Virus record (IMG/VR): IMGVR_UViG_3300042882_000890
Span: 1 to 64,000 of that record
Source: a virus
DNA: 64,000 nt
Reading direction: 5' to 3' (one strand)
Of the stretch, positions 48,260 through 50,173 are shown piece after piece. The notes under the pieces were generated by a model. That model saw only the letters and a list, made by a program, of their open reading frames with translations, searched no databases and had not been told where the DNA came from. Both the position numbers and the translations under genes were made by a program. Each line of letters begins with the position of its first letter. Position 1 is the first letter of the stretch.

Positions 48260-48291
48260 TTTGCAGGATTAAAAAATAAGTTGTACCTTTG
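48260..48291 (+). promoter_or_regulatory. Strong promoter for the RNA locus
   Basis: TTTGCAGG from 48260 and TACCTTTG at 48284-48291, 20 bases apart. Transcription would start near 48298. Confidence 0.8.
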
Positions 48292-48297
48292 CAAAAC

Positions 48298-48545
48298 AAA
48301 ATTAGAACATAACCTGTACCCCCGAAAAACTCGTATTAATGATAAGCAGGTTATCCCGACATAAAGGGGTAGGAGAATTAGGGAAAATAAAGATTATGAA
48401 TGTGGTGCGACTTCTGCACAGATAGCTTAAAAGTCAGTAAACGAGCAGATAACTGAACTGCCACACAATCTTTATCTGTGTAAATATAGTAAATAGACGT
48501 AAGGCAGAGGGTCTTGAGTTAAATCGGACATTCCCCCCTACATAG
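48298..48545 (+). ncRNA. Structured non-coding RNA candidate, first domain
   Basis: No gene is present. The 8-bp stem ATAACCTG/CAGGTTAT (48309-48316 with 48347-48354) is followed by a long-range pairing of ATAAAGATT and TGTGG with CCACA and AATCTTTAT (48387-48405 with 48461-48475). The sequence starts at a strong promoter. The class is not recognised; large phage RNAs near tRNAs such as ROOL or GOLLD should be considered. Confidence 0.6.
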
Positions 48546-48660
48546 GTAGCACGGAATTTATTTTTTAAGGTTAAACATTCAAACCTTTGTAATAGACTGT
48601 TAGGGGTCTTTAAGACGGAGTGCTACTTTACATAAAAGAAGTATTTTGCTTTACATAAAA

Positions 48661-48692
48661 AATGTTAATAGGTTAAACATTGAATACCTTTG
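48661..48692 (+). promoter_or_regulatory. Internal promoter in the RNA locus
   Basis: TACCTTTG at 48685-48692 with an AT-rich -33 region. A very similar block with AACCTTTG lies at 48568-48589, so the element is duplicated. Confidence 0.55.
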
Positions 48693-48699
48693 TAAACAA

Positions 48700-48970
48700 A
48701 AAGCCTGCCTTAATGAGGTCTGCGTTAAAAGACTTGGCTATAGTAGTCTGTTTACATAAAGATACATGCAGTAATGTATGAACGTGAGTTGCCTTGAGAA
48801 AGCAATAAATATTAAGAGTATTAAATTGATATACTACTCACGTAATGAGCCTCGGCAAGTAGTTAATCAGGTGTGAGTTCAGTAATCCTCCCAATTACAC
48901 ATCGAAAGGAGGTAGTTAACTACGTGACCCTACTCTTATGTCGCAAGACTATGGATAAGAAAGAGGGTGC
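48700..48970 (+). ncRNA. Structured non-coding RNA candidate, second domain
   Basis: The strand folds into ACGTGAGT/ACTCACGT (48782-48789 with 48836-48843), then GTAGTTAA/TTAACTAC (48859-48866 with 48916-48923) enclosing CCTCC/GGAGG, and a final two-part hairpin (48927-48968). Between the domains, TTTACATAAA occurs three times (48626-48757). It ends right before the lipoprotein gene, so it may be a long leader or an independent RNA. Confidence 0.6.
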
Positions 48971-48992
48971 TAAAATTTTAAATAAATAAAAA

Positions 48993-49248: not shown

Positions 49249-49358
49249 TTTGGGTATGTTGAATGGTAAACAAGCACTGTGACCAGTGTGGCATAGAGTT
49301 GAGAGTCCGGATGTCAAAACTCTTATAAGTCCTTGGGGGTTCGAGTCCCTCTACCTAA
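49249..49358 (+). pseudogene. Aberrant tRNA-like element
   Basis: TTGGGTA (49249) pairs with TACCTAA at the 3' end, a T-arm GGGGG-TTCGAGT-CCCTC is intact, and TTGAATGGTAAACAA is a good D-arm. The distance between D- and T-arm is about 36 bases too long, no 7-base anticodon loop can be formed, and a second D-arm-like hairpin TTGA...TCAA lies inside. It looks like a fusion or degenerate tRNA rather than a working one. Confidence 0.5.
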
Positions 49359-49372
49359 TCAAAATTATAGAT

Positions 49373-49738
49373 ATGGAAATAGTAGAAAGCGTAGTAAAAA
49401 GAGCTAATAGTTATTTAAGAGATACAGAAGACTGTATAGAATACCCCATACTAAATAAAGATGGCTATGGAGAAATGCAAACTTATTTATTAGGTAAGAA
49501 AAAGCATTATTTGATGCACAGAGTATCTTTCCAAATATTTAGCGGTATAGATATAAGTTCAGATAATATTATTTGTCATAAGTGTGATAACCCTAGTTGT
49601 ATAAACCCTAGACATTTAGTTTTAGGCACTCATTTAGAAAATGTAAAAGATAGGGTTATAAAAAACAGAAGTGCTAAAGGTAAAAATAATGGTAGGTATA
49701 AACATGGTACCTATGTAAAAAATAACCCAAATGGGTAA
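49373..49738 (+). CDS. HNH homing endonuclease-like protein
   Basis: A 121-residue protein from the ATG at 49373. The fold core is MHRVSFQIF, then ICHKCDNPSCINPRHLVLG and HLENVKDRV, the standard zinc-binding HNH module of phage homing endonucleases (His, two Cys pairs, N-P-x-H-L). It lies between the tRNA-like element and the acceptor half of the tmRNA, a typical place for a homing gene. Confidence 0.88.
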   Translation: MEIVESVVKRANSYLRDTEDCIEYPILNKDGYGEMQTYLLGKKKHYLMHRVSFQIFSGIDISSDNIICHKCDNPSCINPRHLVLGTHLENVKDRVIKNRSAKGKNNGRYKHGTYVKNNPNG

Positions 49739-49744
49739 CAGAAA

Positions 49745-49806
49745 AGTAGTTTGTTGATATATTATTGAAGTTGACCAACACCCGAGTTCGACTCTCGGCA
49801 TCTCCA
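49745..49806 (+). ncRNA. tmRNA acceptor piece
   Basis: Contains the P2 3' strand, T-stem CCGAG/CTCGG with loop TTCGACT (49782-49798), acceptor strand CATCTCC and a discriminator A at 49806. CCA is not encoded (CTA follows), so it would be added after processing. The 5' end is approximate. Confidence 0.7.
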
Positions 49807-49937
49807 CTAATCACTTGGTATTAAGGTGGTTACAGTTTCCTTGAACTATAAACAAGGTGGTGGAGTCACTGAGCAATCAGTTGACCTAAAGGGGCTTTTG
49901 GAAGATTGTGCCACTTTATAAAAAACAATCTATATAA
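49807..49937 (+). other. Spacer between the two tmRNA pieces
   Basis: 131 bases, no gene. Contains hairpins CCTTG/CAAGG and AGATTGT/ACAATCT that would be removed during maturation. Confidence 0.5.
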
Positions 49938-50077
49938 GGGGATGACTGGTTTTGATTGGCAATAAGTAGGTAGTAAGGAGAATGTACTTTAAACACAAAC
50001 GGAGACGTTTACCAACTTGGTGGTGTTCAGCTTAGAGCTGTAGCATAACCACGCCTGAGGAGAGCGAAATCTCCTCA
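49938..50077 (+). ncRNA. tmRNA coding piece
   Basis: Starts GGGGATGACTGG, holds the tag frame (50001-50045, stop TAA 50046-50048) and ends in the 8-bp hairpin TGAGGAGA/TCTCCTCA (50056-50077). The start of the tag (GGA GAC) matches the G-E/D beginning of Bacteroidota tags; its end AVA is hydrophobic like LAA. Confidence 0.7.
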
Positions 50078-50080
50078 AAT

Positions 50081-50154
50081 GCCCCCATAGCTCAGTTGGT
50101 CAGAGCAACTGACTCATAATCAGTAGGTCACAGGTTCAAGCCCTGTTGGGGGCA
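50081..50154 (+). tRNA. tRNA with anticodon CAT (elongator Met or Ile2)
   Basis: A complete cloverleaf: acceptor GCCCCCA/TGGGGGC, D-arm GCTC...GAGC, anticodon stem ACTGA/TCAGT with loop CTCATAA, and T-arm ACAGG-TTCAAGC-CCTGT. The first pair is G-C, so it is not an initiator. CCA is not encoded. If its C34 is modified to lysidine it would read AUA. Confidence 0.95.
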
Positions 50155-50173
50155 CAAACTAAAAACAAATAAT

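Follow-up and report, generated by a model that had tools for sequence, protein, structure and literature searches.

We report a permuted tmRNA gene with Bacteroidota-type ends in a 64,000-nucleotide stretch of viral DNA (the window; part of a 106,604-base IMG/VR virus record), from a phage that very probably infects Bacteroidota. The acceptor piece of the gene lies ahead of its coding piece, and the spacer between them holds a module that phage one-piece tmRNAs carry elsewhere. We consider it likely that the gene yields a phage-encoded, Bacteroidota-type tmRNA processed into two annealing pieces, charged with alanine and used with host SmpB in rescue and tagging, that the form of the tmRNA switched within the phage clade, and that the module aids the precursor.

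Permuted tmRNAs are known from alpha- and betaproteobacteria, cyanobacteria and mitochondria (PMC3985003, PMC11915505). The bacteria recognised as carrying them fall into just three main lineages, and alpha, beta and cyano sequences are the basis of the Rfam model RF04321 (PMC11915505). The window gene shares with RF04321 and the Caulobacter two-piece tmRNA an acceptor piece before the coding piece, a tRNA-like domain formed in trans (acceptor stem and P2) and a tag in the coding piece; it differs in being Bacteroidota-type and phage-borne, with a spacer that contains the module of phage one-piece tmRNAs. A reading made from the sequence alone, before this analysis, had named these bacterial lineages and credited a few phages with ordinary ssrA. 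Permuted tmRNAs of phages as such are already known: in one survey, 53 of 133 phage tmRNA structures were permuted, 50 of these 53 came from marine or aquatic samples, and in the discussion they are taken to follow alpha, gamma/beta and cyano lineages (PMC9004378). Some of the 53 phages may infect Bacteroidota. In the papers searched, we found no description of permuted tmRNAs of Bacteroidota phages. Methylophilales phage Melnitz and pelagiphages likewise encode a permuted ssrA, but they are placed with lineages whose bacteria are themselves permuted (PMC9004378); here, many permuted tmRNAs occur in phages of a phylum that is itself nearly all one-piece.

The gene and its flanks comprise the following features.

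49361-49741 (+): insertion that separates an upstream T-arm element from the acceptor piece and carries an HNH_3 homing endonuclease gene
49745-49806 (+): acceptor piece; its 5′ end is an estimate from conservation, and the full CCA is absent from the DNA
49762-49767 and 49775-49778: TTATTG and CCAA, the P2 partners in the acceptor piece
49782-49798 (+): T-arm of the acceptor piece; T-stem CCGAG/CTCGG (49782-49786/49794-49798), loop TTCGACT
49799-49805: acceptor 3′ strand CATCTCC, followed by discriminator A73 at 49806
49807-49937 (+): intervening segment from the mature 3′ end to the mature 5′ end, 131 nt
49839-49886 (+): conserved module; H1 CCTTG/CAAGG (49839-49843/49853-49857), UGGUGGAG (49858-49865; complementary to the mature tmRNA 3′ end CUCCACCA), H2 ACTGA/TCAGT (49868-49872/49877-49881) and ACC (49884-49886)
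49888-49930 (+): probable H-type pseudoknot, by inspection; S1 AAAGgGGC/GCCaCTTT, S2 GATTGT/ACAATC (49904-49909/49925-49930)
49938-50080 (+): coding piece, holding the 5′ acceptor strand, D-arm analogue, P2 5′ strand, tag frame and 3′ hairpin
49938-49944: 5′ acceptor strand GGGGATG, pairing 7/7 with CATCTCC
49956-49965: P2 5′ strand; TTGG (49956-49959) pairs with CCAA, and CAATAA (49960-49965) with TTATTG
50001-50048 (+): tag frame GDVYQLGGVQLRAVA with stop TAA, 15 codons
50056-50077: 3′ hairpin of the coding piece, TGAGGAGA/TCTCCTCA
50081-50155 (+): tRNA-Met(CAT), abutting the coding piece and starting 3 nt past its terminal hairpin

This anatomy agrees with the sequence-only reading, which had proposed a T-arm and CATCTCC 131 bases 5′ of a tmRNA-like end (found at 49782-49805 and 49938), a 7-bp acceptor stem with one G-T pair, P2 between the two pieces and, at the expected distance, a 15-codon frame ending in AVA and a stop. 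The single G-T pair, G3-U70, is the one that specifies alanine identity. In related phages the acceptor piece directly adjoins the 3′ end of a tRNA; with tRNAs flanking both pieces, their processing would help to set the piece ends, and 5′ processing of tRNA-Met would fix the 3′ end of the coding piece.

ARAGORN independently called a permuted tmRNA ("tmRNA*") in the window, with the tag given above. RF04321 (tmRNA_permuted) matched over its full length at 49749-50048 (model positions 1-213, 42.1 bits, E = 7.5e-7), although this score lies below the gathering cut-off of 47 bits. The one-piece model RF00023 reached 17.5 bits on the two ends alone, and we rejected a one-piece fold of the region on that ground; nor is the contiguous one-piece layout (5′ half, tag, 3′ half) present, as tRNA-Met directly follows the coding piece. 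ARAGORN called no tmRNA, one-piece or permuted, when run on 9.6 Mb of sequence made by Markov randomisation of the window (150 copies), and the same gene occupies the same place in related phages, so the call is not due to chance. Membership of the class of tagless (CDS-less) phage tmRNAs was rejected on account of the conserved 15-codon frame with its stop. ARAGORN itself fails on several clade members and assigned L003 a wrong tag from beyond tRNA-Met; with the window copy also below the RF04321 cut-off, standard searches overlook or mislabel such genes. The wrong L003 tag came from an unannotated stretch 3′ of tRNA-Met (L003:5060-5260), which is also present in L005.

Related phages were reached through RNR-beta, encoded just downstream of the tmRNA. 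Four syntenic phages (L002, L003, L004 and L032) carry the permuted gene at 51-65 bits against RF04321, over the cut-off, and three further clade contigs, found with a 29-mer of the intervening segment, carry it at 58 bits. The tag in most relatives reads DNVYQLGGVQ... or DNVYTLGGVQ..., with DNVYQLGGVQ(L)R.. also found, and its codons show synonymous third-position differences at Gly, Val and Gln; the phage tag ends (-AVA, -IAA, -FAA) are unusual. Scanning viral contigs with GGGGNTGANTGGTTTTGA returned many phage tmRNAs, one-piece as well as permuted. The window gene is no singleton but one of many permuted genes in such phages, with one-piece forms in sister phages. Permuted genes with Bacteroidota-type ends from the scan contigs, the window's clade and one Bacteroidota chromosome made up a set of 29. 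Their acceptor stems are paired 7/7 in 29/29 genes, but the filter had demanded at least 6/7 acceptor pairs beforehand, and therefore the covarying position 5 (A-T, G-C, T-A (or T-G), C-G) and the P2 test weigh most. Cognate P2 duplexes averaged -10.0 kcal/mol against -7.9 ± 0.4 (sd) kcal/mol for swapped partners, and none of 20,000 permutations reached the cognate mean; the window's own P2 ranked 7th of 29 among partner swaps. The T-stem is paired 5/5 in 28 of the 29, and G3-U70 and A73 are kept in all. L140, like the pattern matches in L057/L058, was rejected as spurious. In L053, L054 and L055 (genes G027-G029), the T-loop has become GGCAGAG and the D-arm analogue GAAATAGTATTGA replaces GACTGGTTTTGA; the two changes may have arisen jointly, or the elbow contact may be decaying, and a drift to loss of function is possible.

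Bacteroidota-type promoters (TTTG-N17-21-TANNTTTG) number 21 in the window against 3.6 expected, and a Bacteroidota genome has a similar permuted tmRNA in what appears to be a prophage; these two observations make a Bacteroidota host very probable, as the sequence-only reading had supposed. That genome (G277) is the only one of 395 Bacteroidota genomes with a permuted gene over the cut-off. Its apparent prophage (L203/L204, C1:966500-1005900) carries the gene, with tag GKVIQMNNAPVRLAA, among tRNAs and phage-like genes and near an integrase-like gene (gene identities there were judged by eye), and the genome also has its own one-piece tmRNA (160 bits). RF04321 matches in three other Bacteroidota genomes (L200-L202) were rejected as standard genes. 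One-piece tmRNAs scored over the cut-off in 362 of the 395 genomes, bearing out the one-piece ssrA that the sequence-only reading had assigned to the phylum. In the GTDB set, 10 genome contigs have the 5′ end GGGGGTGACTGGTTTTGACAG, all of them Bacteroidota and all with a one-piece tmRNA. Five DNA queries of INPHARED found no cultured Bacteroidota phage with a permuted tmRNA; in the cultured phages phi38:1, Calle_2 and phi14:2 the tmRNA is one-piece.

The sister phage L036/L046 has a one-piece tmRNA (RF00023, 93.7 bits; frame GDNAQIEANMNKVFSLLGEEVAVAA in our own translation) at the same locus with the same neighbouring genes, and the L036 RNR-beta is 94% identical to that of the window. A tree of four concatenated proteins places L036 next to the permuted clade, as its sister (support 69). 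With RNR-beta alone, L036 falls within that clade (support 76), which recombination could produce. Under either tree, the presence of a one-piece gene at this locus in so close a sister phage indicates that the tmRNA form switched inside this phage clade, in one direction or the other. Both forms at one locus in one clade make the origin of split tmRNAs directly testable.

One-piece tmRNAs of Bacteroidota phages that fall under RF00023 (L036/L046, Cellulophaga phi38:1, Calle_2, Flavobacterium FpV4) share the tRNA-like sequence and the H1-UGGUGGA-H2 module with the window gene. In those of the L036 type, H1, TGGTGGA and H2 ending in ACC or CCC lie between the tag stop and the acceptor half. Run over 417 kb, a covariance model (R1) built from 14 one-piece phage modules only gave nine matches at E ≤ 1; each falls in the intervening segment of a permuted gene, eight of them in clade members and the ninth in L144. 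Singly these matches are weak (E 0.003-0.97), with E 0.011 in the window (49834-49887) and E 0.003 in L144, whose permuted gene is outside the clade. R1 also matches the one-piece tmRNAs of cultured phi38:1, Calle_2 and FpV4, and detected no module in 40 host loci; host tmRNAs contain TGGTGG in 2/29 cases and TGGTGGA in 0/29. The H1 stem occurs as nine distinct sequences with pairing preserved in each. The module is the counterpart of the pseudoknot region in phage one-piece tmRNAs. The mature tmRNA ends in CUCCACCA, whose reverse complement is exactly the module's TGGTGGAG, and the UGGUGGA of the module may pair there. A 29-nt portion of the intervening segment is identical in seven other contigs retrieved with that 29-mer, an identity partly due to selection of the hits by their search pattern.

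An H-type pseudoknot after the module is probable. It recurs at the same place in G001, G002 and G022, where the stems differ in sequence, and the one-piece tmRNAs L104, L105, L107, L133 and L093 have a pseudoknot at the corresponding place. Against shuffles, each sequence taken singly was not significant (11-39% of shuffles were equal, and the window's own copy forms only with a mismatch), so the case for the pseudoknot is its constant position.

The tRNA-like and tag parts alone follow a rotation of the one-piece order. Taken as a whole, the gene reads acceptor, module, 5′ half, tag, against 5′ half, tag, module, acceptor in the phage one-piece tmRNAs, and it is not a plain circular permutation because its spacer holds the module that these carry between tag and acceptor. 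Of the earlier label "circularly permuted, two-piece", the permuted layout stands, given the ARAGORN call and the RF04321 match, while the plain rotation falls with the position of the module. A fuller proposal, on which we are nearly evenly divided and lean slightly to the doubtful side, is that this is a non-circularly permuted tmRNA: the phage-specific pseudoknot module would have been relocated to the spacer from between tag and acceptor and selected there, working either within the precursor or as a third RNA piece, possibly through pairing of its invariant UGGUGGA with the tmRNA's own UCCACCA 3′ end, with the switch of form falling within one phage clade. Non-circular permutations of natural RNAs were first reported in 2023, from a search for self-cleaving ribozymes (PMC10085705). 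There, as here, the order of parts departs from the standard beyond rotation; those ribozymes are single folded RNAs, whereas the precursor here is presumably cut into pieces. The relocated module offers a natural experiment on the purpose of tmRNA pseudoknots. A review describes PK2-4, the last three of four tmRNA pseudoknots, as dispensable in vitro but involved in how tmRNA folds and is processed (PMC3985003). A module that the precursor retains but neither piece includes fits a role in processing, and it most likely helps the precursor to fold and be processed. The intervening sequence is only 18-20 nt in the permuted genes L087, L089 and L094, so the module is not required by every permuted tmRNA. 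Other permuted phage tmRNAs (L108, L111) have a different conserved spacer segment (GGAGATT..GGGGTAGCCTAA.AAAGAATGACAAAA) between their pieces. The permuted tmRNA of L096 (c3480-3844) has an apparent complete tRNA, possibly tRNA-Ala(TGC), between acceptor and coding pieces, which suggests that tRNA processing cuts that precursor on both sides.

Under the reading we favour, a single precursor would probably be cut by host tRNA-processing enzymes: RNase P would act at G49938 and where tRNA-Met begins, and tRNase Z with exonucleases after A49806, followed by CCA addition. The acceptor and coding pieces would anneal via the acceptor stem and P2, and G3-U70 would direct charging with alanine. A search of 15 phage records, including some fragments, turned up no SmpB gene, so host SmpB would have to serve; stalled ribosomes would then be rescued and the 15-residue tag added, giving DVYQLGGVQLRAVA-tagged peptides. 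Instead of rescuing ribosomes, the phage tmRNA might be a decoy, a competitor for host SmpB, AlaRS or EF-Tu that weakens the host's trans-translation. A CDS-less phage tmRNA, that of the mycobacteriophage DS6A, is reported to inhibit endogenous tmRNA in E. coli (PMC11915505), and a tagless tmRNA-like gene of ~78 nt is present in viral contig L090. We regard the decoy as unlikely, however, since it would not need a tag frame and the clade keeps the frame with synonymous changes and a stop codon. The L090 gene (L090:1298-1375) consists of GGGGGTGATTGG..., a short P2 hairpin, a T-arm and CACCTCCAC, and resembles the DS6A tmRNA.

A possibility that we rather doubt, and that is otherwise compatible with the favoured reading, concerns the module itself, which might be a third mature RNA piece or be retained at the 5′ end of the coding piece, leaving the mature tmRNA with its pseudoknot region in trans. 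The module is conserved although a discarded spacer need not be, and its homologue belongs to a mature one-piece RNA; yet the genes with the shortest spacers dispense with it, and the identity of the 29-mer is partly a product of its use as search pattern. RNase P normally removes 5′ extensions, which also speaks against a retained one. As to origin, the general layout is shared with the alpha- and betaproteobacterial and cyanobacterial permuted lineages, and RF04321, built from them, matches; a gene taken from such a lineage (as in phage Melnitz) and then adapted is nonetheless distinctly improbable, because its ends match Bacteroidota tmRNAs exactly and the sister phage has a one-piece gene in the same place with the same phage-specific module. 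ssrA is a common integration site (PMC11590407), which could suggest the remnant of a site-specific integration, with a displaced 3′ end lying by chance ahead of a broken 5′ part. We give this practically no credence: the same order, covarying stems and cognate P2 pairing across 29 genes rule it out, and in the window's clade tRNAs lie close on both sides.

Directly ahead of the acceptor piece, the ORF at 49373-49738 matches Pfam HNH_3 (E 3.6e-8), and L003/L004 have an empty insertion site (CTACCTAATCGAAATAGTTTG). The conserved element at 49250-49350, which received no tRNA call from ARAGORN or Rfam, ends in a T-arm (GGGGGTTCGAGTCCCTCTACC) and is 93% identical in L004. An Rfam search of the upstream non-coding region 48290-48990 gave nothing convincing; segments of this long stretch are kept in L003, L004, L036 and L053-L055, for example CTTGAGAAAG...CTCGGCAAGTAGTTAA...GTGACCCTACTCTT...GAGGGTGCTAA.
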